Assembly: GCF_900107415.1 (NCBI RefSeq)
Contig: NZ_FNPX01000010.1
Coordinates: 1 to 64,000 of the forward strand
DNA length: 64,000 nt
Origin: Jannaschia faecimaris
GTDB taxonomy: Bacteria > Pseudomonadota > Alphaproteobacteria > Rhodobacterales > Rhodobacteraceae
Reading direction: 5' to 3'
Positions 20,339 to 35,200 of the stretch are shown here, piece after piece. Under the pieces are notes generated by a model. That model was not told where the DNA came from. It did not search any database and saw nothing but the letters and a program-made list of their open reading frames with translations. Position numbers and translations under genes: made by a program. Position 1 is the stretch's first letter; each line of letters begins with the position of its first letter.

Positions 20339-20340
20339 TG

Positions 20341-20543
20341 GTGTTTCTATAGATTTTATTTGAAATCAGACGTTTGAGGAAATTCTCCGATCCCGGTCGA
20401 ATTTGTGTTGACCCGGCGCGCGCTCAAAAACATCTTTGATCCAAGCTGGAGGAGATGGGCGAGGCGAACCGGGGAACCGGGCGACTTCGAACCATTTCCC
20501 ATCGTGCGGACCGGGTCACTTACACCTGCGCGGAGCTGACTAC
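20341..20543 (+). promoter_or_regulatory. GTA cluster leader and promoter region
   Basis: About 200 bp of non-coding DNA between the mltG terminator and g1. The first 65 bp are AT-rich, unlike their surroundings, and contain GATTT-N6-AAATC (20352-20367). A -35-like TTGACC lies at 20408-20413, but no convincing -10 stands 16-18 bp further. A GGAGGAG at 20447-20453 precedes no good start. This is where a GTA activator such as GafA would be expected to act; no binding site is recognised. Confidence 0.45.
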
Positions 20544-20909
20544 ATGGAAGAGCAAATCGTCGAACCCTTGGGCAAGGATTCACCGGAGGGGTTCAAATCA
20601 CGCGTCGAAGCGGCCTTGGCAGGCATGGAGGCGCTACGGCAAACGGTACAACGAAAACTTGGCGAACTGAACGCAATGACCGAGGACGAATTGAAGGCAG
20701 CCGATTTGACGGCGCTTCAACGCGACCTGGGCAAGGCGGTGACATTGGCCGTACTTGAAGAAGGGAAGGTGTCTGATGCCTTACGACAGCAGACGGGCGG
20801 AGGTGGACTCGACCTCGACGCGGCACGCGCTGCGATACGGGGGCGTCTCGATAGCATCCGCGCCGCGAGCGATCCGGGAAGCGTTTCTGGAGTCGCTGAG
20901 CGAGAATGA
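20544..20909 (+). CDS. GTA small terminase subunit (g1)
   Basis: First gene of the GTA cluster, 121 aa, helical and acidic, with a coiled-coil-like middle (VEAALAGMEALRQTVQRKL...LTALQRDLGKAVTLAVLEEGK). In Rhodobacter capsulatus the g1 product is the small terminase that recruits DNA non-specifically to the large subunit. ATG 20544 follows CGGAG at good spacing. Its 3' end overlaps the g2 frame. Assignment rests mainly on position, size and the adjacent terminase. Confidence 0.75.
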   Translation: MEEQIVEPLGKDSPEGFKSRVEAALAGMEALRQTVQRKLGELNAMTEDELKAADLTALQRDLGKAVTLAVLEEGKVSDALRQQTGGGGLDLDAARAAIRGRLDSIRAASDPGSVSGVAERE

Positions 20910-22173
20910 ATTGCAGGCCTTGCCCTATCTCTTCGAGTTTTGGGCCTTGGACCATCAGTTGCCACCACAAGAGGATTGGCGGACATGGGTGATCCTGGGT
21001 GGACGGGGCGCGGGCAAAACCCGCGCCGGCGCGGAGTGGGTCAGAGATCGGGTCGAAGGCTCCCGCCCGTTGATGGCCGGAAGCGCGCGACGCGTGGCGC
21101 TGGTCGGCGAAACCTATGATCAGGTACGGGATGTTATGATCGAGGGGGAGAGCGGCATCTTGCGATGCTCTCCCCCGGACCGGAAGCCGCAATGGAAGGC
21201 AGGCCAGCGCAAGCTGGTCTGGCCGAACGGAGCCGAGGCGCAGGCGTTTTCGGCGCATGACTTCGAGGCCCTGCGTGGCCCTCAGTTCGATGCCGCGTGG
21301 GTGGACGAACTGGCGAAGTGGAAACGACCGCAGGAGGCCTGGGACATGTTGCAATTTGGGCTGCGATTGGGCGACCGGCCGCAGGTGGTAGTGACGACGA
21401 CGCCCAAGAACGTGGACGTATTGAAAGATATCCTGAGCAGAACATCTACCGTATCTACCCACGCGGCGACCGAGGCCAATCGCGCCAATCTGGCGCGCGG
21501 CTTTCTGGAGGAGGTCATGGAGCGCTATGGCGGCACCCGTCTGGGCCGTCAGGAATTGGAAGGTTTGCTTCTGGAGGACATCGAGGGAGCGTTCTGGACG
21601 ACACCCGTTCTGGATGCGTTGCGGGTGGACGATGTCCCGACGTTTGACCGCGTGATCGTCGGTGTGGACCCGGCGGTTTCGTCAAAAGGGACATCCGACG
21701 AAACCGGGATCGTGGTCGTTGGCGCGGTTACGAAAGGCCCCGTGAAGGACTGGAAAGCCTGGGTGCTGGAAGATGCGACGGTGTCCGCAGCTTCGCCGAC
21801 GGACTGGGCCAAGGCTGTGGCAACGGCCTATGAGCGATGGGGTGCCGACCGCGTCGTGGCAGAGGGCAACCAGGGCGGAGACATGATCGAAGCGGTGTTG
21901 CGGCAGGTTACGCCGACGGTGAGCTATCGCAAAGTGATGGCGCGACATGGCAAGGGCGCTCGGGCCGAGCCGGTTGCCGCGCTTTATGAGCAGGGCCGGG
22001 TACGGCACCGCAGGGGCCTGGGTGAGTTGGAAGACCAGATGTGCCGGATGTCGGTCACCGGATACGCGGGACGCGGATCGCCGGACCGAGTGGACGCGCT
22101 TGTCTGGGCGCTGTGGGCGGCGTTGCTTGACCCGGCGCTTTCAAGGGCTGGACCGCGGATGCGTCAACTCTGA
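20776..22173 (+). CDS. GTA large terminase / DNA-packaging ATPase (g2)
   Basis: DNA-packaging motor of 465 aa. ATPase domain: Walker A GGRGAGKT (residues 75-82) and Walker B WVDE (176-179). Nuclease domain: acidic residues in VGVDPA (Asp298), AEGNQGG (Glu363) and PDRVDALVWAL (Asp437/Asp440). All motor and nuclease motifs look intact. The start is uncertain: ATG 20776 has GGGAAGG upstream but overlaps g1 by 134 bp, and no ATG or GTG start fits between it and the conserved region. It is followed by a terminator-like hairpin. Confidence 0.93.
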   Translation: MPYDSRRAEVDSTSTRHALRYGGVSIASAPRAIREAFLESLSENELQALPYLFEFWALDHQLPPQEDWRTWVILGGRGAGKTRAGAEWVRDRVEGSRPLMAGSARRVALVGETYDQVRDVMIEGESGILRCSPPDRKPQWKAGQRKLVWPNGAEAQAFSAHDFEALRGPQFDAAWVDELAKWKRPQEAWDMLQFGLRLGDRPQVVVTTTPKNVDVLKDILSRTSTVSTHAATEANRANLARGFLEEVMERYGGTRLGRQELEGLLLEDIEGAFWTTPVLDALRVDDVPTFDRVIVGVDPAVSSKGTSDETGIVVVGAVTKGPVKDWKAWVLEDATVSAASPTDWAKAVATAYERWGADRVVAEGNQGGDMIEAVLRQVTPTVSYRKVMARHGKGARAEPVAALYEQGRVRHRRGLGELEDQMCRMSVTGYAGRGSPDRVDALVWALWAALLDPALSRAGPRMRQL

Positions 22174-22219
22174 ACCTGCGCAAACGCGGCGGAATTGAAG
22201 ACATTGAAACGAACGAGTG

Positions 22220-22247
22220 AAGGGCCCCCGCAAGGGCCCTTTTCTTT
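22220..22247 (+). terminator. Intrinsic-terminator-like hairpin inside the GTA cluster (g2/g3)
   Basis: Perfect stem AAGGGCCC/GGGCCCTT (22220-22227 with 22234-22241), 6-nt loop, then TTCTTTT on the plus strand. It lies between the large terminase stop (22173) and the portal start (22270), so it would cut or attenuate the GTA transcript after the packaging genes. Whether it terminates in vivo is unknown. Confidence 0.75.
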
Positions 22248-22269
22248 TGGGCAGACGGAAGGACGGACG

Positions 22270-23421
22270 ATGTTCGGATTCAAACGGAAGGCCGCGGCGC
22301 AGGTGCCGGAGGCGAAAGCCTCGGCCACGGGGCGACTGGCGGCGATGGGTGCGGCCGGACGCGCCGTCTGGTCGCCACGTGACACGGGCACGTTGATGCG
22401 GCTGGGCTTTTCCGGGAATCCCGTGGGGTTTCGGGCGGTCAAGTTGATCGCGGAGGCGGCGGCGGCGATGCCGTTGGTGTGTTCGGATAGCGACGGACGC
22501 ATGGATGTTCACCCGGTTCTGTCGCTATTGGCACGCCCAAACGGGGCGCAGGGCCGGAGCGAGTTCCTGGAGACTGTGTTCGGGCAGTTCCTGCTGTCGG
22601 GAAATGTATACGTGGAAGCGGTAGGGGCGGGCGGCCTGCCGGCGGAACTGCACGTGCTGCGGTCGGACCGGATGGCAGTGGTGCCCGGGGCGGATGGCTG
22701 GCCGGTTGCCTTCGACTACACCGTGGGAGGGCGCACGCATCGGTTTCGGGTCGGTGAAATCTCGCCGATCTGCCACATCCGGGCGTTCCACCCGCAAGAC
22801 GATCACTACGGCCTGTCGCCCCTGTCGGCAGCGGCGGGGGCGGTTGACGTGCACAACGCGGCGTCGCGCTGGTCGAAAGGTTTGCTGGACAACGCGGCCC
22901 GGCCCTCGGGAGCGATTGTTAACTCGGGCGAGGGACTGACGCAGGAGCAGTTCGACATGCTTTCGGCGGAGATGGAGGCGCAGCACCAAGGCGCGCGCAA
23001 CGCCGGGCGTCCCATGCTGCTGGACGGGGGGTTGGACTGGAAACCGATGGGATTCAGCCCCAGCGATATGGAATTCCAGAAGACAAAGGAGGCCGCGGCC
23101 CGCGAGATTGCGATGGCCTTCGGAGTGCCGCCCATGATCCTGGGGATTCCCGGTGACGCGACCTACGCCAACTACGTCGAAGCGAACCGGGCGTTCTATC
23201 GCCTGACGGTCGTGCCGCTGGTCGCGAAGATCTGCGACGGACTGGCCCATTGGATCGGCAGGCATTCCGGCGCGCCGGTATCCCTGACCATTGACCGCGA
23301 CCGGGTACCCGCCTTGCAGGCCGAGCGGGATGCGGAATGGGCGCGGATCGCGGGGGCGAGATTCCTGACAGACGTCGAGAAGCGCAGGATGCTTGGACTG
23401 CCGCCATTGGAAGACGCATGA
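22270..23421 (+). CDS. GTA portal protein (g3)
   Basis: HK97-type portal (383 aa), which forms the ring through which DNA enters the capsid. Recognisable family blocks include GNPVGFRAVKLIAEAAA, VLSLLARPN, LSGNVYVEAV and IREIAMAFGVPPMILGIPGDATYANYVEA-like text near residue 280-310. ATG 22270 follows GGAAGG; upstream in-frame codons run through the terminator hairpin and are not used. It overlaps the next small gene by 4 bp. Confidence 0.94.
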   Translation: MFGFKRKAAAQVPEAKASATGRLAAMGAAGRAVWSPRDTGTLMRLGFSGNPVGFRAVKLIAEAAAAMPLVCSDSDGRMDVHPVLSLLARPNGAQGRSEFLETVFGQFLLSGNVYVEAVGAGGLPAELHVLRSDRMAVVPGADGWPVAFDYTVGGRTHRFRVGEISPICHIRAFHPQDDHYGLSPLSAAAGAVDVHNAASRWSKGLLDNAARPSGAIVNSGEGLTQEQFDMLSAEMEAQHQGARNAGRPMLLDGGLDWKPMGFSPSDMEFQKTKEAAAREIAMAFGVPPMILGIPGDATYANYVEANRAFYRLTVVPLVAKICDGLAHWIGRHSGAPVSLTIDRDRVPALQAERDAEWARIAGARFLTDVEKRRMLGLPPLEDA

Positions 23422-23651
23422 GCTTGGCGCGCAGCGGAGGGTCGCGGTTTCTGTACGATCCGTTCGATGCGGCCAACGCGCGGATCGATGCCAATGAACG
23501 GGTTTTGCAGGAGCGCTGGGACGCACTCACGTTCCGTTTGGAGCAGATCGAGGGGACGCTGGAGCGGCTGGAGAAGCGGCTTTGGCTGGCGGTAATGGGC
23601 GTAGCGGGGGCTGTGTTGGCGCAGGGCGTCAACTACCTGATTTCATTATAG
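23418..23651 (+). CDS. Small GTA protein between portal and protease (g3.5-like)
   Basis: Small protein of 77 aa. It has a basic N-terminus, a coiled-coil segment (ERWDALTFRLEQIEGTLERLEKRL, heptad-like, split here by register) and a C-terminal hydrophobic helix (LAVMGVAGAVLAQGVNYLISL region). It starts inside the portal stop (ATGA) and ends 9 bp before the protease. Position and size match orfg3.5 of the Rhodobacter GTA. Its role is unknown; membrane or capsid association is a guess. Confidence 0.72.
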   Translation: MSLARSGGSRFLYDPFDAANARIDANERVLQERWDALTFRLEQIEGTLERLEKRLWLAVMGVAGAVLAQGVNYLISL

Positions 23652-23660
23652 GAGGGGCCT

Positions 23661-24188
23661 ATGGGTCTGGAACGTAAGTTCGTGCAGGGGGATGCCCCCG
23701 TGCGTCTTGAGGATGGCTCCTGCGTTGCGGGATACGCATCGTGGTTCGGGGTGGAAGATACCGGTCGAGATATCGTGCAAGCAGGTGCCTATTGCGACAG
23801 CCTGGCGCGGATGTCGGTCGAGGGCCGGCGGGTCAAGATGCTTTGGCAGCACGACCCTACCCAAGTGATCGGTATCTGGGACGAAGTGCGCGAGGACGCG
23901 CGGGGCCTGTTCGTCAAGGGCCGCCTTTTGCCGGGCGTCGAGAAGGCGCGAGAGGCGGCGCAGCTGATCGAGGCGGGCGCGCTGGACGGGTTGAGCATCG
24001 GATACACGGTCAAACGGGCCGGGAAAGACAGTCAGGGCCGCAGGCTTCTGAAGGAACTGGAGCTTTGGGAAGTGTCGTTGGTGACCTTCCCAATGCTGCC
24101 CAGTGCGCGGGTTGGGACCAAGGCAGACCCTCTGCGTGAAATGGCGCGGGCGATCCAGTCCGCGCGTCTTGAACTGGCGCGCGACTGA
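23661..24188 (+). CDS. GTA prohead protease (g4)
   Basis: HK97-family maturation protease of 175 aa that trims the capsid protein during assembly. The catalytic His64 lies in LWQHDPTQVIG and Ser112 in DGLSIGYTV; the C-terminal ELWEVSLVTFPM block is typical. A GGAGG ribosome binding site sits just before ATG 23661. It lies directly upstream of the capsid gene, as in tailed phages. Confidence 0.95.
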   Translation: MGLERKFVQGDAPVRLEDGSCVAGYASWFGVEDTGRDIVQAGAYCDSLARMSVEGRRVKMLWQHDPTQVIGIWDEVREDARGLFVKGRLLPGVEKAREAAQLIEAGALDGLSIGYTVKRAGKDSQGRRLLKELELWEVSLVTFPMLPSARVGTKADPLREMARAIQSARLELARD

Positions 24189-24219
24189 CGCCGCCGATCC
24201 CAACGGAAAGGAACACCCG

Positions 24220-25365
24220 ATGAGTCATTACGGCGTCGGGGAAGTCACCGAAGCGCTGACCGGTCTGGTCAGCGATTTCAGAGGCTTCCGCCAAAATATT
24301 ACCCAGAAGATGCAGCAACAGGAAGAGCGGCTGAATATGAGCTACAAGACCCAACGCCCCCAGCTGGCGAGCGACGATATGAGCCACGCCCCGCACCAGA
24401 AGGCCATGGACGCCTATCTGCGGTCTGGTGACGACGATGGGCTGCGCGCCTTGGCGCTGGACGCCAAGGGAATGAATACCGCCGTGTCCGCCGAGGGCGG
24501 ATACCTGGTTGACCCGCAGACCGCGGAAACGGTGAAGTCGGTCCTGACTGGTGCCTCGTCTATCCGGGCGGTAGCCAATGTCGTCAATGTGGATGCCACG
24601 TCTTATGACGTCTTGGTTGACCACACCGATCTGGGTGCCGGTTGGGCCAGTGAGGCAGGCGGCTTTGCCGAGACGGTCAGTCCGCAGTTCGACCGCGTGT
24701 CGATCCCGCTTCACGAATTGTCCGCAATGCCCAAGGCTTCGCAGCGGTTGCTGGACGACGCGGCATTCGACATCGAGGGCTGGCTTGCGGGGCGTATCGC
24801 CGACAAGTTTGCATCCTCGGAAGCGGCAGCTTTTGTCGTAGGTGACGGCGTCGACAAGCCGACGGGGTTCCTGATCTATTCCAATGTCGACGAGGCAAGC
24901 TGGACCTGGGGCGCGCTTGGCTATGTCGCCACCGGGGCAGTGGACGATTTTCACGCAGAGCGTCCTTCTGATGCAATCGTAGACTTGGTCTATGCATTGG
25001 GTGCAAAATATCGGGCCAACGCCACCTTCGTCATGAATTCGAAGACGGCTGGCGCGGTGCGCAAGATGAAGGATGCGGACGGTCGCTTCCTGTGGTCGGA
25101 CAGTCTGACCGCCGGTCAGTCGGCGCAGTTGATGGGGTATCCGGTGCTGATTGCCGAAGATATGCCGGATATCGGCGCGGATGCCACCGCCATCGCATTT
25201 GGTGACTTCGGTGCCGGCTACACGGTCGCAGAGCGGCCTGACCTGCGCGTTCTGCGCGATCCCTTCAGCGCCAAACCCCATGTTCTGTTCTATGCAACCA
25301 AGCGTGTTGGAGGTGACGTGACCGACTTCGCGGCGATCAAGCTGCTGAAGTTCACGTTGGCCTGA
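24220..25365 (+). CDS. GTA major capsid protein (g5)
   Basis: HK97-fold capsid protein of 381 aa. The N-terminal part (about 1-85) is helical and glutamine-rich (QKMQQQEERL), a typical cleaved delta domain; the mature shell begins near residue 90 (SAEGGYLVDPQTAETV). C-terminal landmarks are LLDDAAFDIEGWL and LMGYPVLIAEDMP. ATG 24220 gives a good AAAGGAAC ribosome site. It is followed by a hairpin and a 177-bp spacer, unlike the tightly overlapping genes further on. Confidence 0.96.
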   Translation: MSHYGVGEVTEALTGLVSDFRGFRQNITQKMQQQEERLNMSYKTQRPQLASDDMSHAPHQKAMDAYLRSGDDDGLRALALDAKGMNTAVSAEGGYLVDPQTAETVKSVLTGASSIRAVANVVNVDATSYDVLVDHTDLGAGWASEAGGFAETVSPQFDRVSIPLHELSAMPKASQRLLDDAAFDIEGWLAGRIADKFASSEAAAFVVGDGVDKPTGFLIYSNVDEASWTWGALGYVATGAVDDFHAERPSDAIVDLVYALGAKYRANATFVMNSKTAGAVRKMKDADGRFLWSDSLTAGQSAQLMGYPVLIAEDMPDIGADATAIAFGDFGAGYTVAERPDLRVLRDPFSAKPHVLFYATKRVGGDVTDFAAIKLLKFTLA

Positions 25366-25373
25366 TCCCAGCC

Positions 25374-25398
25374 GGCCCCGACTGTCGCGGTCGGGGCC
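25374..25398 (+). other. Hairpin directly behind the capsid gene
   Basis: Perfect 9-bp stem GGCCCCGAC/GTCGGGGCC (25374-25382 with 25390-25398) with a 7-nt loop, 8 bp after the capsid stop. No T-tract follows, so it is more likely an mRNA-stabilising or processing element, or a Rho-assisted stop. It begins the longest non-coding spacer within the cluster (25366-25542). Confidence 0.6.
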
Positions 25399-25542: not shown

Positions 25543-26091
25543 ATGGCGATGATGGTGCAGGGATCCGATGGGATCGAGGATGACGTTCTGCCGGTGGCAG
25601 ATTTGGCCGCGTCAATGCGCTTGGCCGATGGCTTCGAGTCCGTTCCGGGCCAAATGGCTCGGTTGCGAGGGCGTTTGCGGGCGGCCATTGCCATCGTGGA
25701 GACACGCACGAGCAAGGTGTTGGTCGCACGGGAGTTCATGCTGAGAGGCGTGGCAAAGGACGGCACACGCCAAGCTGTTTCGATTTCGCCGCTGGTAGAG
25801 GTGATCGCAGCCGAAGTTCAGCAGGGGACGACGGTGGTCGATCTTGGGGAGGTTCTGGTTGAGCCGCATCCGCACCGGGCCGTTCTTGTATTCGAGCGTT
25901 CACTCCGGGTCGGAGCCGTTTTGACGCTGAGGGTGACGGCTGGATATAGCGCCTGGTCGCAGGTTCCAGCCCCATTGCGCGAAGCTGTTCTGATGATCGC
26001 GCAGGGGTTGGATTCTGGCGACGATGTCACGGCGCAGGCGGAGAGCCTTATGGCTCCATATCGGGCGTTGCGGATTGGGGGGAGGGGCTGA
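25543..26091 (+). CDS. GTA head-tail connector/adaptor (g6)
   Basis: Connector of 182 aa, corresponding to orfg6 of the Rhodobacter GTA (HK97 gp6-like adaptor ring below the portal). The family segment LPVADLAASMRLADGF...RAAIAIVETRTSKVL is clear near the N-terminus. ATG 25543 has a strong GGAGGTG site; the frame is open further upstream but without a site. It overlaps g7 by one base. Confidence 0.85.
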   Translation: MAMMVQGSDGIEDDVLPVADLAASMRLADGFESVPGQMARLRGRLRAAIAIVETRTSKVLVAREFMLRGVAKDGTRQAVSISPLVEVIAAEVQQGTTVVDLGEVLVEPHPHRAVLVFERSLRVGAVLTLRVTAGYSAWSQVPAPLREAVLMIAQGLDSGDDVTAQAESLMAPYRALRIGGRG

Positions 26092-26432
26092 TGGCACATG
26101 TCTTCACGCGGTACCTGAAGCTGGAGGTTCCCGTGCGCACTTCCGACGGTGCCGGAGGGCAGGCCGTGACATGGGAGCAGCGTGGAGGCCTTTGGGCCGA
26201 AGTTAGAATGCGGTCCGGCTCGTTGCGGCATGGGGACTTTGGGCGGACGCCGAGATTACAGGTTCGTATGCGAACCCATGCATTGCCCGAAGGCAGTTCA
26301 ATGCGACCGGAGCCGGGTCACCGTCTGCGTGACGGGGCCCATGTCTATGAGGTCGAAGCCGCGCATTGCGACGACGCGCATGTGCTGACGATTCTGGCAA
26401 GTGAAACGCCCGGTGCGGGAGGCACGGCATGA
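26091..26432 (+). CDS. GTA head closure / head-tail adaptor protein (g7)
   Basis: Small all-beta protein of 113 aa of the phage head-closure class (SPP1 gp16 / HK97 stopper-like), expected to seal the neck. Landmarks are WEQRGGLWAEV and a basic beta-rich C-terminus (HVYEVEAAHCDDAHVLTIL). It is fused by overlapping codons to both neighbours (TGATG and ATGA), showing translational coupling through the neck genes. Confidence 0.85.
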   Translation: MAHVFTRYLKLEVPVRTSDGAGGQAVTWEQRGGLWAEVRMRSGSLRHGDFGRTPRLQVRMRTHALPEGSSMRPEPGHRLRDGAHVYEVEAAHCDDAHVLTILASETPGAGGTA

Positions 26433-26842
26433 CCTATGCGATGGGCGAGAGCCTCCAGGCCGCGATTTACGCGCACCTGATAGACGATCCGTCGGTGGAC
26501 GCTCTGCTGTCGGGTGCCGTTTTCGACGATGTTCCGACGGATGCACCAGACCCGTTCGTGGCGATTGGACCCGAGAGAGCGCGAGGCATCGGCGACAGCG
26601 GTGGCACCGGTGCAATGCACCAGATGACGATCAGCGTTGTAACGCGACGAAAGGGATACCTCGCAGCCAAAGCAGTGGCCGTCGCGGTTTCGGATGCACT
26701 GTCGCGCGCGGATCTGACGCTGGCGCGGGGCCGTCTGGTGTCGCTGCGCTTCGTTCGAGCTCAAGCAAAGCGGGACAAGGCTGAGGGCGCGCGGCGGATC
26801 GATCTGATCTTTCGGGCACGTACAGATGAGCCGGGTCTGTAG
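26429..26842 (+). CDS. GTA tail completion protein, DUF3168 family (g8)
   Basis: Protein of 137 aa of the DUF3168 (tail terminator/completion) family: N-terminal AAIYAHLIDDPSVDALLSGAVFDDVP, then MHQMTISVVTRRKGYLAAKAVAVAVSDAL. It caps the tail tube and joins it to the neck. It starts inside the g7 stop. Order and length match orfg8. Confidence 0.88.
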   Translation: MTYAMGESLQAAIYAHLIDDPSVDALLSGAVFDDVPTDAPDPFVAIGPERARGIGDSGGTGAMHQMTISVVTRRKGYLAAKAVAVAVSDALSRADLTLARGRLVSLRFVRAQAKRDKAEGARRIDLIFRARTDEPGL

Positions 26843-26866
26843 GCCCAATCAAGGAGATATGGAAAC

Positions 26867-27280
26867 ATGACTGTTCAAGCGGGCAAGGACCTTTTGTTGA
26901 AGGTTGACCAAGATGGAACCGGCGTTTTCGTGACGCTGGCGGGGCTGAGGGCGACGCGGCTGACTTTCAATGCTGGAAGTATCGACGTCACCTCGACTGA
27001 AAGTGCCGGCGGTTGGCGCGAATTGTTGGGGGGTGGGGGCGTAAAGTCAGCCGCCGTATCGGGATCGGGCATTTTCCGAGATGCTGGCACGGATGCGCGG
27101 GCGAGACAGCTGTTCTTCGATGGAGAGGTGCCTGCGTTCCAGGTCATCATTCCGGACTTTGGAATCGTGGAGGGGCCATTTCAGATCACCTCACTGGAAT
27201 ATGGTGGCACCCATGATGGAGAAGCCACCTATGAAATCGCGCTCGCGTCAGCGGGCGAGCTGATCTTTACGCCGCTTTGA
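26867..27280 (+). CDS. GTA major tail (tube) protein (g9)
   Basis: Tail-tube protein of 137 aa, polymerising as rings into the tube. It resembles the TP901-1 major tail family: GKDLLLKVDQDGTG at the N-terminus, FNAGSIDVTSTESAGGWRELL, and a beta-rich end. The ribosome binding site AAGGAG is the best in the tail section, fitting a protein needed in many copies. g10 starts within its stop codon. Confidence 0.93.
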   Translation: MTVQAGKDLLLKVDQDGTGVFVTLAGLRATRLTFNAGSIDVTSTESAGGWRELLGGGGVKSAAVSGSGIFRDAGTDARARQLFFDGEVPAFQVIIPDFGIVEGPFQITSLEYGGTHDGEATYEIALASAGELIFTPL

Positions 27281-27603
27281 TGGAGTATGGGAACCCCTTC
27301 GCGGGCGAAGTGGCGCTGGTATTGAATGGCCAGCGATATGTCCTGAAGCTGACATTGGGCGCGCTGGCCGAATTGGAGGCCGACCTGGACGAAGATAGCC
27401 TGGTTGCGCTGGTTTCCCGGTTTGAAAGCGGCGGGTTCCGCGCACGCGACGTGGCGCAGCTCCTCTTGGCTGGACTGCGGGGCGGCGGGTGGCGCGGCAA
27501 CGCCGGAACGCTTTTGTCCGCGGAAATCGAGGGCGGCCCCCCCGAAGCGACGCGGGTTGCCGCGTTGCTGCTGGGAAGAGCGTTCGCCCTGCCGGGATCA
27601 TGA
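27280..27603 (+). CDS. GTA tail assembly chaperone-like protein (g10)
   Basis: Protein of 107 aa of the gene-transfer-agent gp10 family. The short conserved stretch VALVLNGQRYVLKLTLGALAELE (here shown only to 23 residues in part: VLKLTLGALAELEADL) is typical of phage tail assembly chaperones. ATG overlaps the g9 stop by one base and its own stop overlaps the next gene. In phages such a pair sits between tube and tape-measure genes, as here. Confidence 0.84.
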   Translation: MEYGNPFAGEVALVLNGQRYVLKLTLGALAELEADLDEDSLVALVSRFESGGFRARDVAQLLLAGLRGGGWRGNAGTLLSAEIEGGPPEATRVAALLLGRAFALPGS

Positions 27604-27815
27604 AACGGGTGTCTGACATCGGGCTTGATTGGCCTGCGCTCATGGCGGCGGGTCTCCGCAGGCTCGGACTAAAGCCTGCGGAATTCTGGGCACTGACACC
27701 AGCGGAGTTAGCGTTTTTATTGGGGCATGGGGACGGACGATTGCCGATGGACCGGGCGGGGCTTGATGCGCTGGCCGCCCGATTCCCGGACACGGAGGAA
27801 AGCAAAGATGGATGA
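27600..27815 (+). CDS. GTA tail assembly chaperone, small (g10.1)
   Basis: Protein of 71 aa matching the small phage tail chaperone family seen after g10 in rhodobacterial GTAs (TIGR02216-like). The motif is DWPALMAAGLRRLGLKPAEFW followed by LTPAELAFLLG. ATG sits in the g10 stop (ATGA). g10 and g10.1 as two overlapping frames recall the G/GT pair of lambda, although no slippery sequence was identified. Confidence 0.82.
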   Translation: MKRVSDIGLDWPALMAAGLRRLGLKPAEFWALTPAELAFLLGHGDGRLPMDRAGLDALAARFPDTEESKDG

Positions 27816-28455
27816 TGTGGTTGGCGAAGGCCTGGATGAGAAACTCGATGCGTTGGAAGCGCGGCTGGGCGGGTCAGAGGTGGTCGTGGCACGATTCACG
27901 GCGGCGCTTGGCACCTTGGAAGGGCAGATGCTTTTCACCCAACGGGAGGTGCAGGGCCTGTCCCGGTCATTCGGCGGGTCACTGAAGCGCGCCTTTGATG
28001 GTGTGGCTTTTGACGGTCAGAAGCTGTCAGATGCCCTGAGTACGTTGGCGCAGTCCATGGTCAACGCATCCTATAACGCGGCAGTGCGGCCTGTCAGTCA
28101 GGCGCTTGGCGGAACATTGGCGAGCGGAATCAACGCCGTTTTGCCCTTTGCAGACGGGGCGAGTTTCGCTCAGGGCCGTGTCATGCCCTTTGCAAAGGGC
28201 GGTGTGATCAGTGCGGCGTCGATGTTTCCGATGCGTGGTGGAACTGGCCTGATGGGCGAAGCTGGCCCGGAGGCCATCATGCCTCTACGGCGCGGGCCGG
28301 ACGGCAGCTTGGGCGTGGCAGCACAAGGTGGGAGCGGCGCTGTCACCATCAACATGAATATTGCGACGCCGGATGTACAGGGCTTCAGGCGGTCCCGCAG
28401 CCAAGTTGCCGCTGAAATGTCCCGCGCCCTGTCGCGCGGTGCACGCAATCGCTGA
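27808..28455 (+). CDS. GTA tail tape-measure protein (g11)
   Basis: Protein of 215 aa setting tail length; its shortness fits the short GTA tail. It has a helical, coiled-coil N-terminal half (LDEKLDALEARLGGSE...LEGQMLFTQREVQGLSRSF), a hydrophobic central stretch, and the tape-measure C-terminal signature AKGGVISAAS...GLMGEAGPEAIMPLRR. The start overlaps g10.1 by 8 bp. Confidence 0.9.
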   Translation: MDDVVGEGLDEKLDALEARLGGSEVVVARFTAALGTLEGQMLFTQREVQGLSRSFGGSLKRAFDGVAFDGQKLSDALSTLAQSMVNASYNAAVRPVSQALGGTLASGINAVLPFADGASFAQGRVMPFAKGGVISAASMFPMRGGTGLMGEAGPEAIMPLRRGPDGSLGVAAQGGSGAVTINMNIATPDVQGFRRSRSQVAAEMSRALSRGARNR

Positions 28456-28465
28456 GGAGGTGTCG

Positions 28466-29098
28466 ATGTCTTTCCACGAAATACGGTTCCCGCCACGCTT
28501 GTCCTTGGGCTCCATTGGCGGGCCGGAGCGTTTAACCGAGATCGTCACGCTCGCTAATGGGCACGAGGAGCGCAATACGCCTTGGGCACATTCGCTTCGG
28601 CGCTATGATGCGGGCGTTGGGATGAGATCCCTGAACGACGTAGAAGACTTGATCGCGTTTTTCGAAGCACGGCGTGGGCAACTGCACGGATTTCGATGGA
28701 AAGACTGGGCCGACTGCAAGTCCAGCCGGCCTTCGGACCAGATCAGTTTTCGCGACCAGGTCATCGGGGTTGGCGACGGTCAGGCGAAGGTATTCCAGCT
28801 CTCCAAGACCTATGTTTCGGGCAACCAGGACTACACCCGTCCGATCACCAAGCCGGTGCCGCGCAGCGTATTGGCTGGGGTGCAGGACGACGAGCTAACA
28901 TATCAGGTGCACTATACCGTGGACCACGAGTCGGGACTCGTAAGCTTTGTGGAGCCGCCTGATATCGCCGTTGAGGTGACTGCCGGGTTTGAATTCGACG
29001 TGCCGGTTCGTTTCGATACCGACGCGATCCGGACGTCGGTTGCCAACTTCCAGGCGGGCGAAGTCCCAGATGTGCCGGTCGTGGAGTTGCGAGTATGA
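28466..29098 (+). CDS. GTA distal tail protein, DUF2460 / TIGR02217 (g12)
   Basis: Protein of 210 aa with the family opening FHEIRFPPRLSLGSIGG and the blocks FFEARRGQLHGFRWKDWADCKS and YTRPITKPVP. In the Rhodobacter particle this is the distal tail ring joining tube and hub. A good GAGGAGG site precedes ATG 28466. Its stop overlaps the g13 start by 4 bp. Confidence 0.92.
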   Translation: MSFHEIRFPPRLSLGSIGGPERLTEIVTLANGHEERNTPWAHSLRRYDAGVGMRSLNDVEDLIAFFEARRGQLHGFRWKDWADCKSSRPSDQISFRDQVIGVGDGQAKVFQLSKTYVSGNQDYTRPITKPVPRSVLAGVQDDELTYQVHYTVDHESGLVSFVEPPDIAVEVTAGFEFDVPVRFDTDAIRTSVANFQAGEVPDVPVVELRV

Positions 29099-29964
29099 GT
29101 ATGCTTGCGGAGCACATGGCCAGCGGCTGTACGACGGTTTGTCGGGCGTGGATCGTACGGCGCAAAGATGGCTTGACCCTTGGATTTACCGATCACGATC
29201 TTGAATTGATCGTGGAGGGCGTTGCCTGTTTGGCAGCTTCCGGGATGACAGCCGGTGCCTTGCAGGCCTCAACCGGATTGGCGGTGGACAATGCAGAGGC
29301 GCAGGGCGCGCTAAGTCATGATGCGATCCGAGGAGAGGATATTCGCGCAGGCCTTTGGGATGGTGCGGAAGTCACGAGCTACTTGGTAAATTGGCAGTCA
29401 GCGCAGGATTTCGAAGTCCTGTTCCGCGGCTCGCTTGGTGAGATTTCCTGGGGCGAGGGTGCCTTTACGGCTGAATTGCGCGGGCTTTCTGAGACGTTGA
29501 ACAAGGCGCGGGGACGCGTCTACCAGTCACGCTGCGATGCCGCGCTAGGCGACGAACGCTGCCGCCATGAGCTTGGGCCAATGTTCACCACGGAGGTGGA
29601 GGTATCCGCTTCCAGCGATGATCGGCTGGTCATGCTGCCGCTCTTGCGAGATTTCCCGCCGAAGTGGTTTGAGAACGGACAATTGATCGTCCTGTCTGGC
29701 GCAGCACAAGGGGCCTTGGAACGGATCAAGACTGACCGCACGCGGGAAGAAGTCCGAGAGTTGGGACTTTGGCAGTCTTTGCGAAGAGCAATCGAACCCG
29801 GGGATCGGGTGAAGATCAACGCCGGTTGTGACAAGCGCATGTCGACGTGCCGATTGAAGTTTGACAACTTATTAAATTTTAGAGGTTTTCCTCAGATTCC
29901 CGGCGAGGATTGGCTGTTGACCTATCCTGTTTCCGGCGGGGGAAATGACGGTGGCAAGTTGTGA
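29095..29964 (+). CDS. GTA baseplate hub protein, DUF2163 (g13)
   Basis: Hub protein of 289 aa with an N-terminal DUF2163 domain (WIVRRKDGLTLGFTDHDLEL) and a C-terminal domain holding four conserved cysteines in two pairs (SRCDAALGDERCRH and NAGCDKRMSTCRLKF). In related tail hub proteins such cysteines bind an iron-sulphur cluster, so the same is likely here. A notably AT-rich patch (29860-29884) lies within its 3' end. It overlaps g14 by 4 bp. Confidence 0.92.
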   Translation: MSMLAEHMASGCTTVCRAWIVRRKDGLTLGFTDHDLELIVEGVACLAASGMTAGALQASTGLAVDNAEAQGALSHDAIRGEDIRAGLWDGAEVTSYLVNWQSAQDFEVLFRGSLGEISWGEGAFTAELRGLSETLNKARGRVYQSRCDAALGDERCRHELGPMFTTEVEVSASSDDRLVMLPLLRDFPPKWFENGQLIVLSGAAQGALERIKTDRTREEVRELGLWQSLRRAIEPGDRVKINAGCDKRMSTCRLKFDNLLNFRGFPQIPGEDWLLTYPVSGGGNDGGKL

Positions 29965-30407
29965 ATGCAATTGTAACGGCTGCCCGTGCCTGGATCGGGA
30001 CGAAATACGTGCATCAGGCTTCTCTGAGGGGTGGGGGAACGGATTGCTTGGGCTTGGTGCGCGGTGTCTGGCGCGAGTTGTATGGCGACGAGCCTGAAGC
30101 TGTCCCCGCCTATTCCCGAGACTGGGCCGAACCGCAGGGCCTTGAAGTGTTGTTCGAAGCGGCAGGGCGTCACCTAGCCCGCGTCCCGAGATCGCGATCG
30201 TTCCAAGCGGGAGAGCTGCTGCTCTTTCGAATGCGCGATGCAGCTATAGCCAAGCACCTTGGTATCATTGGTGATGGCGGCAACACACCGACTTTCATAC
30301 ACGCGTACACCGGGCATGGTGTGGTGGAAACCCATTTGTCGTCGCCCTGGAACCGCAGGATCGCGGCGCGATTCGACTTTCCCCCAATCATTGACGAGGA
30401 GAACTGA
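29961..30407 (+). CDS. GTA NlpC/P60 cell-wall peptidase (g14)
   Basis: Cysteine peptidase of 148 aa that opens peptidoglycan of the recipient during DNA entry. The catalytic Cys29 is in GGGTDCLGLVRG and His99 in AIAKHLGIIGDGG. The start is GTG inside the g13 stop (GTGA). It is a particle component, distinct in role from the endolysin at 12.6 kb, which would act from within the producing cell. Confidence 0.93.
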   Translation: MNAIVTAARAWIGTKYVHQASLRGGGTDCLGLVRGVWRELYGDEPEAVPAYSRDWAEPQGLEVLFEAAGRHLARVPRSRSFQAGELLLFRMRDAAIAKHLGIIGDGGNTPTFIHAYTGHGVVETHLSSPWNRRIAARFDFPPIIDEEN

Positions 30408-30409
30408 TC

Positions 30410-33400
30410 ATGGCGACACTCGTCTTAGGAGCAGTCGGAGCAGCGGTCGGAGGAAGTCTCGGCGGGTCGTTTCTTGGCTTGAGCGGGGCAGTGGTTGGCC
30501 GCGCAGTCGGAGCCACACTAGGGCGCGTCATCGATCAGTCGATTCTGGGTGCCGGGGCTGATGCGGTTGAGGTCGGACGGCTGGATAGGTTGCGGTTGAT
30601 CAGCGCATCGGAGGGTGCACCCATTCCTAGGGCGATCGGACGCGTTCGATTGTCGGGACAGGTCATTTGGGCGAGCCGATTCAGAGAAACACGCGAGACC
30701 ACAGGTGGTGGAGGCAAGGGAGCGCCAAGGGCCCCGAAACAGACTTCCTTTAGCTATTCGGTATCTCTTGCAGTCGCCGTGGCAGAGGGCGAGATCACCC
30801 GGATCGGGCGGATATGGGCCGACGGCAAAGAGATTGCGCGATCCTCGGTATTGATGCGAGTCTATCGCGGCACGGAAGATCAGATGCCAGACTCGCTAAT
30901 CGAGGCAATCGAGGGGGCGGACAATGCCCCGGCATTTCGCGGTGTCGCGTACGTCATGTTTGAAGATCTTGATTTGACACCATACGGGAATCGCGTGCCG
31001 CAACTGTCGTTCGAGGTCGTTCGTACGATCGAGGTTCCTGGGGAAGTACCGGCTCCGTCATCTCTGATCGAGGGCGTGGCACTGGTTCCCGGAAGCGGTG
31101 AATTTGCTTTGGCAACGACGGCGGTGCATTTCAATAAGGCCGGTGAGAAGGACTCGGCGAATGTGAATACGCCACAGGGGATCGCCGATTTTCGGGTCTC
31201 GATGGATGATTTGGTGGAGGAGTTGCCAAACCTGAAATCCGTGTCGCTTTTGGTGTCGTGGTTCGGGGATGATCTGCGCTGCGGAGAGTGCGAAATCAAG
31301 CCACGGGTTGAGCATACTGACGTTGAAGGAACGGGGCAGTTTTGGAACGTCTCCGGTCAGACCCGCGCAACAGCCGGCACGGTGCCGATGAAGGGTGGCC
31401 GTCCTGTCTATGGTGGAACCCCGAGCGATCTTTCAGTGATAGAGGCGATCCGTGATCTGAATGAGCGTGGACTCGCGATCACGTTTTACCCGTTTATTAT
31501 GATGGACCAATTGGCTGGGAATGGCCTGCCAGACCCCTATGGATCTGAGGAGCAACCAGCTCTGCCGTGGAGGGGCCGGATTACGACTGGACTGGCGGCC
31601 CATCAAAACGGATCAAGCGACCGGACATTGCAAGCCCGCACAGAAGTCGAGGCCTTCTTTGGTCGGACCGATGGATCGGAGATCATCGTTAAGAGCACCG
31701 GAAGCACCTTCCGGCATGGGCATCGTATTATTCAAGGCCCGGCGGACGACTGGTCGTATCGCCGTTTCATCTTGCACTACGCGAAGCTGTGCGCAGAGGC
31801 TGGCGGCGTCGAAGCCTTTTGCATCGGATCAGAGATGCGCGGTCTGACCCGTATTCGAGCAGAGGGAGACAGTTTTCCATCAGTGGAGGCCTTGCGCGAT
31901 CTTGCGCGCGATGTTCGAGGCATCTTGCCGGATACAAAGATCTCTTACGCAGCGGACTGGTCTGAATACTATGGTTATCAGCCGGCTGATACGGGCAACG
32001 TTCACTTCAATCTGGACCCGCTATGGGCTGACCCTGCGATCGATTTCGTTGGTATCGACAACTATATGCCGCTGGCGGATTGGCGAGACGGGGACGCGCA
32101 TCTTGATGCAGCATTCCGCACTACGAACAACCTCGAATATCTTCAATCGAATATCGAAGGGGGCGAGGGTTTTGACTGGCACTATCCAACCCCAGAAGCC
32201 CGAGCGTCGCAGCGGCGCGTTCCAATATCTGACGGGGCCCACGGAGAGCCGTGGGTTTATCGCTATAAGGACATCCGAAGTTGGTGGACCAATGCACATC
32301 ATGACCGAATTGATGGGACGAGAGCGGAGCAGCCGACGGCGTGGGTTCCGGGGTCGAAGCCAATCCGGTTCACTGAATATGGCTGTGCGGCCATAGACAG
32401 GGGTGCCAACCAACCCAACAAGTTCATTGATGAAAAATCGTCAGAGTCGAGCCTGCCTCGACACTCAGACGGGCGGCCGGATGACACGATGCAGATGCAG
32501 TATCTGCGGAGTCTGCTTGCGTATTGGAATGACTCCAGCCGAAATCCAAAATCCGAGGTTTACGATGGCCGGATGGTAGATTTATCGAGAAGCCTTGCAT
32601 GGGCGTGGGACACAAGACCGTGGCCCTATTTTCCGGAGCTGGCGTCCCACTGGAGTGATGCCCAGAACTACGCGCGCGGGCACTGGATTTCTGGGCGGAC
32701 CGCAAACCAGCCGCTTGCGAACGTTGTTGCGCAAATCTGTAGTTTGGCCGGATTGCGTGACTATGATGTTTCGCGCGTTGAAGGGGTCGTTCGCGGCTAT
32801 GTCATGGCAAATGTTCAAAGCGCGCGTGCCGATCTTCAGCCTCTGATGATGACCTATGGGATTGAAGCGAGCGAGCAAGCCGGAAGAATAGTCTTCTTCA
32901 TGCGTGCAGATGCGCCCGAAGCGAAGCTTGATCCTAACTTTTTCGTCAGGCGGGACGGCCCTGTCATCGTACGGCAGCGCGCGGCATTTGCTGAAGCGCC
33001 GAAACGTGTACTTGTCAACCACATGAATTCGGAGGGCGACTTTGAGATTCGCGTTGCGGACGCGGGCCTGCCGGGCAACTCGGACTCACCGGTCTCCCAA
33101 TCCGAGGTGCCGTTGAGCCTGAGCAAAGGGGAAGCGCACGGATTGGCGGAACGGTTTTTGACCGAGACAAACATTTCGCGAGACACTGTAGAACTGGAAC
33201 TCGCCCCATCGATGCGTCAATACAAACCGGGGCAACTAATTCAGATCGACGAGACAGGTGACCTCTGGCGGATAGACCGGCTTGAGGATGCTGGCGGGCG
33301 CAAAGTTCAAGCAGTAAGGACCGAGCGCGCCCAATATGAGCCGAGTGACCGTGTTGAAGACGGGTCTGGTCGCGTTCGTCCGCTGGCTCCGCTGCCAGTG

Positions 33401-34321
33401 GATTCAACGTTTCTGGAATTGCCTCTCCTGACTGGCGAGGAGGTGCCCTATTCTCCCTATATTGCCGTGTCTGCTTCGCCTTGGCCCGGTACGGTAGCGA
33501 TATATTCGTCTAGCGATGATGCAAATTATGGGCTGAACTCCTTGATCAATCTGCCAACAGTAAATGGCGTGACGGAAACCGTTCTTGATCCCGCCCGACC
33601 GTCGGTGTTCGATAATGGTCCCGAATTGCTCGTGCGGGTTCGCAACGAGACGCTAGAGTCTGTGTCGCTCAAAGCCCTGCTGTCAGGCGCGAATGCTGCG
33701 GCGATAAACGATGGATCTCTGACTGGGTGGGAGGTTTTCCAATTCCAGCACGCCCGGCTTGTTGCGCCAGGCTTGTGGGGCTTGTCCAGACGATTGCGGG
33801 GTCAGCGGGGGACAGAATGGACAATGTGCGAGACCCGCCCTATCGGCTCCACAATTGTGTTCCTCGGTTCGAACTTGGCCCAGTTAGAGTTCGCCAAGGA
33901 AACCTTGGGTGTAGAACGCTATTTCAGAACTGGCCCTGCGCGTCTTCCGCTGGAAAACGAGGCATACCTTCAGGAAAAAATCGTGGTACGTGGCGAAGGA
34001 CTTAGGCCCTACGCGCCAGCGCATCTGAGGGCCACACGACAGCCGGACGGTGTTGCGGTGTCATGGATCCGGCGATCCAGGGTTGGCGGAGACGGTTGGG
34101 GTGCCGCTGATGTGCCAACTGGAGAAGCGCGGGAGCGCTACCGCGTTCAGGTGTTACGGAGCGATGAGAGCGTTTCATTCGAGATTGATACAGTCCTGCC
34201 AGAGGTGTTCATCGACAATCAAAGTCTCGATAACCCGGAAGTTGGACCGCTCCGGCTGTCCGTCGCTCAGATATCGGAAGACGTTGGATCAGGCGCTGAG
34301 GCGTATATCGCGGTTCCGTGA
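30410..34321 (+). CDS. GTA tail tip / host-interaction megaprotein (g15)
   Basis: Largest gene of the cluster: 1303 aa, virtually the size of the Rhodobacter capsulatus orfg15 product. A glycine/alanine-rich hydrophobic N-terminus (residues 4-45) resembles tail-tip membrane-active segments. A TIM-barrel (GTA_TIM) domain lies at about 420-730 (FCIGSEMRGLTRIRAEGD, GNVHFNLDPLWAD), followed by a phage-tail-3 hub domain (about 780-950) and beta-rich C-terminal modules. It is intact. It is more AT-rich than the genes before it, a compositional shift that continues into cysE. Confidence 0.93.
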   Translation: MATLVLGAVGAAVGGSLGGSFLGLSGAVVGRAVGATLGRVIDQSILGAGADAVEVGRLDRLRLISASEGAPIPRAIGRVRLSGQVIWASRFRETRETTGGGGKGAPRAPKQTSFSYSVSLAVAVAEGEITRIGRIWADGKEIARSSVLMRVYRGTEDQMPDSLIEAIEGADNAPAFRGVAYVMFEDLDLTPYGNRVPQLSFEVVRTIEVPGEVPAPSSLIEGVALVPGSGEFALATTAVHFNKAGEKDSANVNTPQGIADFRVSMDDLVEELPNLKSVSLLVSWFGDDLRCGECEIKPRVEHTDVEGTGQFWNVSGQTRATAGTVPMKGGRPVYGGTPSDLSVIEAIRDLNERGLAITFYPFIMMDQLAGNGLPDPYGSEEQPALPWRGRITTGLAAHQNGSSDRTLQARTEVEAFFGRTDGSEIIVKSTGSTFRHGHRIIQGPADDWSYRRFILHYAKLCAEAGGVEAFCIGSEMRGLTRIRAEGDSFPSVEALRDLARDVRGILPDTKISYAADWSEYYGYQPADTGNVHFNLDPLWADPAIDFVGIDNYMPLADWRDGDAHLDAAFRTTNNLEYLQSNIEGGEGFDWHYPTPEARASQRRVPISDGAHGEPWVYRYKDIRSWWTNAHHDRIDGTRAEQPTAWVPGSKPIRFTEYGCAAIDRGANQPNKFIDEKSSESSLPRHSDGRPDDTMQMQYLRSLLAYWNDSSRNPKSEVYDGRMVDLSRSLAWAWDTRPWPYFPELASHWSDAQNYARGHWISGRTANQPLANVVAQICSLAGLRDYDVSRVEGVVRGYVMANVQSARADLQPLMMTYGIEASEQAGRIVFFMRADAPEAKLDPNFFVRRDGPVIVRQRAAFAEAPKRVLVNHMNSEGDFEIRVADAGLPGNSDSPVSQSEVPLSLSKGEAHGLAERFLTETNISRDTVELELAPSMRQYKPGQLIQIDETGDLWRIDRLEDAGGRKVQAVRTERAQYEPSDRVEDGSGRVRPLAPLPVDSTFLELPLLTGEEVPYSPYIAVSASPWPGTVAIYSSSDDANYGLNSLINLPTVNGVTETVLDPARPSVFDNGPELLVRVRNETLESVSLKALLSGANAAAINDGSLTGWEVFQFQHARLVAPGLWGLSRRLRGQRGTEWTMCETRPIGSTIVFLGSNLAQLEFAKETLGVERYFRTGPARLPLENEAYLQEKIVVRGEGLRPYAPAHLRATRQPDGVAVSWIRRSRVGGDGWGAADVPTGEARERYRVQVLRSDESVSFEIDTVLPEVFIDNQSLDNPEVGPLRLSVAQISEDVGSGAEAYIAVP

Positions 34322-34381
34322 TCCCAGTTTGCTTTGGTCGGGCGGAAGGCTTAGATCAAAACTCAAAGATGGAGATGCGCA

Positions 34382-35200
34382 ATGCGGATGCCGAGCAAGA
34401 AATTGCATTCAATCGACCCGGTTTGGGATAGGATTACTGTGGAGGCGCGTCAGGCAGCCCAAGATGAGCCTGTTCTGGGCGGACTTACTCATTCATCTGT
34501 TCTACAGCACGATCTATTAGAAGATGCGCTTGCTTATCACTTCGCGCAAAAGCTGGCTTCAGTTGAGATGAGCGAGCAAATTCTGCGCGAAGTTGCGGAC
34601 ACGGCTTTGGCCGATGATCCGCGTATCGCCACGGCGGCGCGTGCTGATATTGTGGCGACTTATGAACGTGACCCAGCCTGTGATCGTTTCTTGCAGCCGC
34701 TGATGTTTTTCAAGGGCTACAGGGCTGTACAGGCCAGCCGGATCGGGCACTGGCTTTGGATGGAAGGCCGTAGGGATCTCGCCTACTTCGTTCAGATGCG
34801 AATTTCAGAGCTTTTCGGAGTCGATATTCATCCGGGTGCCCAGATCGGGCGCGGCATCATGATTGATCACGCACATTCTATTGTTATCGGTGAGACAGCA
34901 GTTGTGGGAGATAATGTTTCGATGTTGCATTCGGTGACGCTGGGCGGGACGGGTAAGGAAGACGATGACCGGCACCCGAAGATAGGGGACGGTGTTTTGA
35001 TCGGCGCTGGAGCAAAGGTTCTTGGAAACATCAAGATCGGTCATTGCTCGCGGATTGCGGCAGGATCGGTTGTGCTTGAGGATGTGCCACCGAAGACTAC
35101 GGTGGCGGGCGTACCCGCCCGGATTGTTGGCGAGGCGGGATGCGCACAACCCTCTACCATGATGGACCAGTTGATTGGCATCCGATCATCTGACGACTGA
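34382..35200 (+). CDS. cysE: Serine O-acetyltransferase
   Basis: Acetylates L-serine for cysteine synthesis. The protein is 272 aa. An N-terminal helical domain (1-145) is followed by left-handed hexapeptide repeats with the active-site region IDHAHSIVIGETAVVGDNVSMLHSV and the loop GGTGKEDDDRHPKIGDGV. GGAG precedes ATG 34382. It lies 60 bp after g15 on the same strand with no terminator between, so it may be read from GTA transcripts; cysE also adjoins the GTA cluster in other Rhodobacterales, as I recall. Confidence 0.95.
   Translation: MRMPSKKLHSIDPVWDRITVEARQAAQDEPVLGGLTHSSVLQHDLLEDALAYHFAQKLASVEMSEQILREVADTALADDPRIATAARADIVATYERDPACDRFLQPLMFFKGYRAVQASRIGHWLWMEGRRDLAYFVQMRISELFGVDIHPGAQIGRGIMIDHAHSIVIGETAVVGDNVSMLHSVTLGGTGKEDDDRHPKIGDGVLIGAGAKVLGNIKIGHCSRIAAGSVVLEDVPPKTTVAGVPARIVGEAGCAQPSTMMDQLIGIRSSDD

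Follow-up and report, generated by a model that had tools for sequence, protein, structure and literature searches.

The 64,000 nucleotides analysed here (the window; contig C22:1-64000 of a genome of 3.81 Mb in 48 contigs) carry, on the + strand between 20544 and 34321, the 17 genes of a gene transfer agent (GTA) cluster of the type known from Rhodobacter capsulatus (RcGTA), in the order g1, g2, g3, g3.5, g4-g10, g10.1 and g11-g15 (Table 1). Judging from sequence comparisons, the host is a Jannaschia close to J. donghaensis. The best matches of the window capsid belonged to J. donghaensis and J. marina (92 and 91% identity, respectively), and the GTA tree joined J. donghaensis (genome G199) to the window as its sister with support 1.0, as did the host tree with a weak 0.27. 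GTAs of this kind, those of Jannaschia included, are already known, one having been reported for J. aquimarina (PMC4408345).

Gene content and integrity of the cluster

A sequence-only reading of the window had placed g1 to g15 in canonical order without frameshift, naming frameshifts as a possible refutation; in the assembly all 17 frames were open, with one terminal stop each. Nine of the 16 gene joints overlapped, eight by 1-8 bp, in keeping with the many short overlaps announced by that reading, and g1/g2 by 134 bp, a value that presumes the ATG at 20776 as the start of g2, start codons being the analyst's choice. The latter two genes share 20776-20909 in different frames, and a large overlap was also found in the relatives inspected. 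RcGTA (rcc01682-rcc01698) has the same genes in the same order (g1 by eye), between mltG(yceG) and cysE1.

NCBIfam models named for GTA or Rcc proteins matched g3.5, g10.1, g11, g12, g13 and g15, and general phage models exceeded their cut-off for g3, g4, g5, g6, g9 and g14; g2 and g7 stayed below the cut-off and g1, g8 and g10 had no NCBIfam model, while Pfam matches over cut-off added g2, g7, g8 and g10. The solved RcGTA particle (PDB) matched g15 (residues 1-1302), g5 and g3; the g2 terminase had no PDB match at E 0.001. Among the catalytic residues named beforehand, His64/Ser112 of g4, Cys29/His99 of g14 and the Walker A motif of g2 (GGRGAGKT) stand at the positions given, the terminase nuclease acids being represented by a Terminase_6C domain match. 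The claim of a single multi-gene particle system in the window overlooked the GTA lysis pair upstream (12588-13696); in the genome as a whole the cluster is the one Terminase_6N locus.

Table 1. Coordinates of the GTA genes and associated features in the window
Feature	Coordinates	Strand	Basis or remark
GTTAAC, CtrA half-site-like	12530..12535	+	upstream of endolysin start; sequence only, chance level not computed
GTA endolysin, GH108 holin-associated N-acetylmuramidase, rcc00555 type	12588..13199	+	NF040573 348 bits, cut-off 240; Glyco_hydro_108 and PG_binding_3
GTA holin, 3 TM, rcc00556 type	13190..13696	+	PF11351 GTA_holin_3TM 96 bits, cut-off 24.8
Intrinsic-terminator-like hairpin	20312..20340	+	after mltG, ahead of GTA promoter; terminator scan
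Predicted GTA promoter	20408..20436	+	-35 TTGACC 20408-20413; motif CGCGCGCTC 20417-20425; -10 CATCTT 20431-20436
g1, small terminase (TerS)	20544..20909	+	position; C-terminal motif common to R. capsulatus g1; DUF1455 E 8.6e-4, below cut-off
g2, large terminase	20776..22173	+	PF03237 104.5 bits, PF17289 68.4 bits; start codon uncertain
Terminator-like hairpin and T tract, g2-g3 spacer	22219..22252 (hairpin 22219-22242)	+	GC stem; terminator scan
g3, portal	22270..23421	+	TIGR01537; RcGTA portal Rcc01684 E 1e-167
g3.5, type A, rcc01685 family	23418..23651	+	NF048001 106.7 bits; coiled coil and C-terminal hydrophobic helix
g4, prohead protease	23661..24188	+	TIGR01543, PF04586
g5, major capsid protein	24220..25365	+	TIGR01554; RcGTA capsid Rcc01687 E 9.6e-174
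g6, head-tail connector/adaptor	25543..26091	+	TIGR02215 46.9 bits, cut-off 39
g7, head closure/stopper	26091..26432	+	PF05521 40.2 bits, cut-off 25
g8, tail completion	26429..26842	+	PF11367 102.5 bits
g9, major tail protein	26867..27280	+	TIGR02126 103.3 bits
g10	27280..27603	+	PF11836 'GTA-gp10' 96.6 bits
g10.1, rcc01693 family	27600..27815	+	TIGR02216 70 bits
g11, RcGTA tape measure	27808..28455	+	NF058675 301.7 bits
g12, distal tail protein, Rcc01695 family	28466..29098	+	TIGR02217 259.9 bits
g13, baseplate hub	29095..29964	+	TIGR02218 288.1 bits
g14, NlpC/P60 tail peptidase	29961..30407	+	TIGR02219 166.9 bits
g15, baseplate megatron	30410..34321	+	NF048004 1687 bits; RcGTA 6tba chain aligned 1-1302
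cysE, serine O-acetyltransferase	34382..35200	+	60 bp after g15
Terminator-like hairpin	35224-35243	-	between cysE and pdhC; terminator scan

Conservation and inheritance

The g15 (megatron) family was present in all 20 Jannaschia genomes searched, our own included, so that the absence of related genes from sister strains, likewise named beforehand as a possible refutation, did not occur. In a family sample of 198 genomes, one per genus, it was found in 179 (161 over the cut-off, prophage copies counted); the Caulobacter control genome carries it too, as the window does. In J. aquimarina, J. donghaensis and J. marina the cluster is preceded by fabF-mltG and followed by cysE, as in the window. 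The capsid was at least 69% identical to that of the 80 GTA relatives kept, whereas all 579 matched phage records fell below 60%, the best 20 listed of these 579 reaching at most 43.9%. Many contigs with a GTA-like capsid (L232-L311), mostly of ~5-16 kb, are entered as viruses in IMG/VR, and the capsid of one of them (L232) is 100% identical to that of the window.

Against three Jannaschia, dN/dS ranged from 0.005 to 0.34 for the g genes with finite dS, except for g3.5 where the partner carried the divergent type B described below (0.69 and 0.72); dS was saturated (infinite) for some genes, which have no ratio, and masked bases in G199 leave some genes partial. Distances over eleven GTA genes agreed with those over six host genes (Mantel r 0.75, reached by 0 of 999 permutations), with G208 represented in both tree and test by late GTA genes from its contig C178, probably a prophage copy, as its own cluster contig stops after g3. 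On the presence in 20 of 20 Jannaschia, the shared locus and this correlation, the comparisons indicate vertical inheritance with the host lineage, g3.5 excepted.

Lysis genes, cysE and other accessory loci

The endolysin is 63% identical to the R. capsulatus copy that adjoins the GTA holin there, and PF11351 has a single place in the genome, inside the window. A TTAA lies within 110 bp upstream of the endolysin in 19 of 19 relatives, a count for which no chance level was computed. The GTA holin family occurs in 20 of 20 Jannaschia (own included); the pair and the cluster share a contig in 18 of them and lie on different contigs in G201 and G209. The distance from holin to g15 was 16.0-18.7 kb in 17 genomes, G208 being the 18th by its own contig. 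The endolysin and holin genes adjoin ccmF in the window as in each of the 19 relatives fetched. The holin was found in 165 of the 198 genomes of the family sample; among the matches listed, at least 28 genomes (picked by eye) had holin and megatron on one contig, with a smallest distance of 25.9 kb and nine more at 49-69 kb. ccmF stood beside the holin in 12 of the best 20 family loci (~3.3 kb each). From these distances and adjacencies, the placement of the lysis pair beside ccmF looks old, and its closeness to the cluster appears, as far as the matches listed can be read, to be a feature of Jannaschia. In R. capsulatus, by contrast, the pair lacks ccmF in the 13 kb examined, while that of the window sits next to ccmF, 7 kb ahead of the cluster. 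A literature search on gene transfer agent, ccmF and endolysin found no paper in the collection searched.

As the sequence-only reading stated, cysE trails the cluster; the published link between cysE and GTA receipt (PMC9552610) was unknown to it. The gene came next after g15 in 18 of 19 relatives fetched, the exception, G208, not being judged since the contig of its cluster breaks off after g3 and its g15 was taken from a contig that seems to hold a different copy; the gap measured 58-80 bp in 17 relatives. The terminator scan found no terminator-like site between g15 and cysE in the window, so that transcription could run on into cysE. R. capsulatus has g16 between g15 and cysE1, the latter reported to be on its own transcript (PMC9552610), whereas no g16 stands between g15 and cysE in the window. 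A second cysE paralogue on contig C10 is 50% identical over positions 12-264 of 272, and R. capsulatus likewise has two cysE (PMC9552610).

Elsewhere in the genome, contig C42 encodes a GafA-like protein (DUF6456, 364 aa) and contigs C12 and C30 encode DUF2793 proteins, DUF2793 being described as the RcGTA tail fibre (PMC10883770). R. capsulatus has one DUF2793 protein, which the C12 protein resembles lengthwise (by eye), and both genes lie in polysaccharide neighbourhoods; RcGTA shares tail-fibre and lysis homologues with the genome of the window. Near the C12 gene, at a distance of 2-3 kb, there is also an integrase gene (L162 7466-8632).

Promoter motif and g2-g3 hairpin

Relatives across Rhodobacteraceae widely share, ahead of g1, a TTGAC-N4-CGnrCGsTC block that is followed by a -10-like box 17 nt past the -35 hexamer. 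It was present with at most three substitutions in 69 of the 70 loci with a g2 match and exact in 44 of the 70 matched sequences (window counted), and of 70 shuffled upstream segments none came closer than two mismatches, a level that two of them reached, with 14 at three; since the loci counted are those from which the pattern had been derived, the counts are descriptive. R. capsulatus has the same motif with a different -10 element: the block starts 129 bases before g1 (L065), and its CGGACGCTC portion spans roughly -120 to -112 (hand-counted). As GafA binds 75-125 bases upstream of g1 in that species (PMC9638019), the copy falls in the GafA-bound stretch, which suggests a candidate GafA element.

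In its own genome the exact motif occurs twice, at the GTA promoter and at C34:83349-83366, inside the coding end of a Ppx/GppA gene, and only the GTA promoter looks genuine. A genome-wide regulon was rejected, as 33 sites with at most one mismatch compared with 18 for the reversed pattern and the other exact site is that in the Ppx/GppA gene. Within the window alone, motif sites with two mismatches were at chance level (13 vs. 11.3 expected), and the complementarity of the two motif flanks, weak at 39 of 66, is not claimed.

A hairpin followed by a T tract, as in the window, was detected in 31 of 81 g2-g3 spacers (window counted) against 0.2 expected in mononucleotide shuffles, by one detector and in related genomes whose counts are hence not independent. 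The carriers were 18 of 20 Jannaschia (not G209 and G213), J. formosa, both R. capsulatus strains and 10 others, RcGTA thereby sharing the hairpin with the window; stems vary in sequence among relatives, from GGGGCGCC/GGCGCCCC to GGGCCCC types. The case for both promoter and hairpin rests on these relatives, because the scan of the region itself gave fewer sites than its shuffles, both promoter-like (1 vs. 3.9, the GTA promoter not being among the sites listed by the sigma-70 consensus scan) and terminator-like (5 vs. 12.2).

Replacement of g3.5

Type A g3.5 (~77 aa) stands between portal and protease in the window and most relatives, while eight Jannaschia (G198, G199, G200, G204, G206, G210, G213 and G214) carry a type B of ~100 aa, with an extra gene, g3.6 (~139 aa), in G198, G199 and G200. 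J. marina has type A, as the window does, whereas J. donghaensis and J. aquimarina have type B plus the extra gene. The slot is empty in L051, L062, L072 and L080, with 5-44 bases between portal and protease; further loci that bear on the exchange are L002, L009, L004, L005, L167, L168, L173, L176, L178, L179, L181 and L182. The window and its sister G199 differ in type although their g3 and g4 are 91 and 86% identical. At least five changes are needed on the host and GTA trees, G209 and G208 being scored as unknown, and 217 and 209 of 1000 label shuffles were at or below the observed number; since this count is not clearly lower than that of shuffled labels, the types turn over fast.

Type B matched the PHROG 'hemolysin' at 2.7e-10, and Pfam XhlA was matched by eight of ten members of the set of B and phage proteins at E up to 1 (best 2.8e-8, the first member below cut-off). 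The rcc01685 model gave 34.5 bits on type B, below its cut-off of 50; profile comparison related types A and B at 98.7%, to which coiled-coil composition may contribute. An N-terminal GGSR(F/Y)LY-PF is common to most members of A and B and absent from the phage relatives. A search of the phage collection with the type A g3.5 of the window gave no match at E 1, and type A members gave weak, scattered matches to PHROGs. XhlA-like relatives of type B were found in Dinoroseobacter phages R5C (by position and alignment) and R26L, Pseudanabaena phage Pam3 and Rhizobium phage RR1-B (by search). A g3.6-like gene adjoins the B-like gene in R5C, R26L and Pam3; the genes follow a lytic enzyme and holin in Pam3 and the coat protein gene in R5C and R26L, and in RR1-B the B-like gene comes after lysis-like genes (by eye). 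For g3.6, nothing was confirmed in IMG/VR, and a single-sequence structure model was discarded (mean pLDDT 35). On these comparisons g3.5 has, in sister genomes, been repeatedly replaced by a phage-like version while its neighbours were inherited vertically.

Flanking genes

With names inferred from Pfam families, the cluster is preceded by fabG, fabD, a cytochrome b561-YceI gene, the lysis pair, ccmF, ccmH, a DUF2087 gene, an enoyl-CoA hydratase gene, fabF and mltG, and followed by cysE and, in convergent orientation, pyruvate dehydrogenase genes (names inferred from families). Ten ORFs scanned at 88-9074 comprised a TetR regulator, PPK2, a hydrolase, homoserine succinyltransferase, transporters and similar, with two lacking a match; phage families were not matched among them. 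The ORFs of at least 200 aa at 39-64 kb, viewed by eye, are what we take to be glycolytic, purine, radA-, alr- and dnaB-like housekeeping genes. The single DnaB gene (61234-62724, Pfam match) reads as that of the host. Neither integrase nor phage repressor was found in the flanking genes examined (Pfam/NCBIfam; ORFs of at least 200 aa by eye; att sites had no separate search), nor any tRNA gene in the 64-kb window. The family scans and the inspection by eye bore out housekeeping genes on both sides without integrase or repressor, as had been read from the letters; the start then given, 20341, falls just after the mltG terminator, but the first coding base is at about 20544.

Discussion

What the DNA itself shows is a set of genes with their order, integrity and conservation, together with accessory homologues, a promoter motif and a hairpin. 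Homology, gene order and flanks, along with retention throughout the genus, purifying selection on most of the genes and distances that follow those of host genes, make it highly probable that the cluster is a complete, vertically inherited and selectively maintained GTA of the RcGTA type. Several points weigh against it. The first gene is weakly recognised, by its position, C-terminal motif and sub-threshold DUF1455 match, with no match in PDB at E 1 and none to R. capsulatus by tblastn. In another study g1 is reportedly a small terminase. In sister genomes g15 is split (G203, G198) or lacks its C-terminal end (G202), the loci of the three genomes being L153, L158 and L145, either through decay within the genus or through assembly errors; that of G199 is interrupted by masked bases. 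The search for accessory loci covered GafA, the lysis pair and the DUF2793 fibre, out of a set that in the RcGTA type also includes the head spikes ghsA/ghsB (rcc01079/80) and the tailspike TspA. Finally, contig C30 holds a prophage remnant with a g15-like fragment, a DUF2793 fibre and an integrase (L186 16220-19826; L163 296-1717). A second GTA locus at C30:17316-19574 had been considered and was rejected in favour of this remnant, as it covers g15 positions 556-1299 only, has an integrase nearby and lacks a Terminase_6N partner.

For expression, packaging, lysis and transfer we infer the following course, the function of the homologous RcGTA being taken from passages of PMC7296036, PMC6363796 and PMC9552610. 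The GafA homologue of contig C42 would switch on the promoter at 20408 in few cells; g1 and g2 would cut and package host DNA, g3-g9 would form head, connector and tail tube and g10-g15 the tail tip; the endolysin-holin pair (12588-13696) would lyse the producing cell, and the released particles would bring ~4 kb of random host DNA to relatives. With a cluster of 13.8 kb and a cargo of ~4 kb, self-transfer would be impossible under this proposal. At the cluster end, cysE probably contributes, as it does in R. capsulatus, to surface polysaccharide and to the competence of recipients.

An intact-looking cluster might instead have ceased production through regulatory or accessory loss, as the decayed g15 of some sister genomes and a -10 box (CATCTT) departing from the TATACC-like box of the family could indicate. 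However, dN/dS is low in most genes, the promoter motif is exactly kept, the gafA, fibre and lysis homologues are all present, and the Jannaschia CATCTTT is near the TATCTTT of Caulobacter (PMC11150451), so that we consider such silence unlikely. That the cluster is a prophage of the RcGTA-like phage group, intact or integrated not long ago, and packages its own genome is hardly credible and largely refuted: every head and tail module is phage-like, such clusters have been entered as viral contigs in IMG/VR and an RcGTA-like remnant lies elsewhere in the genome, but the flanking genes examined show neither integrase nor phage repressor and a DnaB gene that reads as the host's, the chromosomal neighbours are constant across the genus, distances track host genes, the capsid is distant from phages and the g15 family spans most of the genera sampled.

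The control region invites comparison with the GTA of Caulobacter crescentus (CcGTA), where GafZ binds between -10 and -35 and lets the polymerase past a terminator after the first gene (PMC11150451). In the window the motif, as a putative activator element, occupies the same interval between -35 and -10, and the hairpin, as a putative terminator, follows the first genes, an arrangement that fits the CcGTA layout. CcGTA differs in using GafY plus GafZ, where the genome of the window has a single GafA-like protein, and its element is a palindrome (GCGCCCG-CTGGCGC) unlike the window motif, its terminator region consisting of three 150-bp repeats instead of a simple hairpin (PMC11150451). According to Tran and Le, R. 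capsulatus GafA may have unrecognised anti-termination activity, its binding elements not having been mapped at nucleotide resolution (PMC11150451). Alternatively, the g2-g3 hairpin could adjust gene dosage as a partial terminator, or act in RNA processing or stability. This explanation has close to an even chance of being right, given that GafA anti-termination in Rhodobacterales was not reported in the literature examined, that 50 of 81 spacers have no hairpin by this detector and that terminator-like sites in the window are not above chance; it accounts less readily for a GC stem and T tract recurring at the same place, far above expectation, with differing stem sequences, and for their combination with an element between -35 and -10 as in the GafZ layout.

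Rcc01685 knock-outs still form oblate heads (PMC7296036). Together with the XhlA-like character of type B and the lysis-gene neighbours of its phage relatives, this makes a membrane or release role of g3.5 a plausible hypothesis. We propose tentatively, and leaning somewhat to doubt, that GTAs of Rhodobacterales may be under anti-termination, in which GafA would load on TTGAC-N4-CGnrCGsTC, ride RNA polymerase and be needed to pass the g2-g3 hairpin, and that the g3.5 swaps of some Jannaschia, for a lysis-accessory protein of the XhlA-like phage type, may hint at a membrane role in release, not in head building.

Overall, this is an ordinary but complete RcGTA-type cluster, whose noteworthy parts are the lysis pair, the promoter motif, the g2-g3 hairpin and the g3.5 exchange; as one more RcGTA, its value lies in the comparison it permits. 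The exchange of g3.5 shows that phage-like genes can still enter a particle cluster which is domesticated and in other respects inherited vertically, and it calls the 'head formation' label of the rcc01685 family into question. Motif and hairpin give exact sites for testing GafA anti-termination, R. capsulatus included, and the control region points to a testable on/off switch that was not clear earlier: if the proposal is true, stray firing of the promoter would give terminase message alone and never particles.

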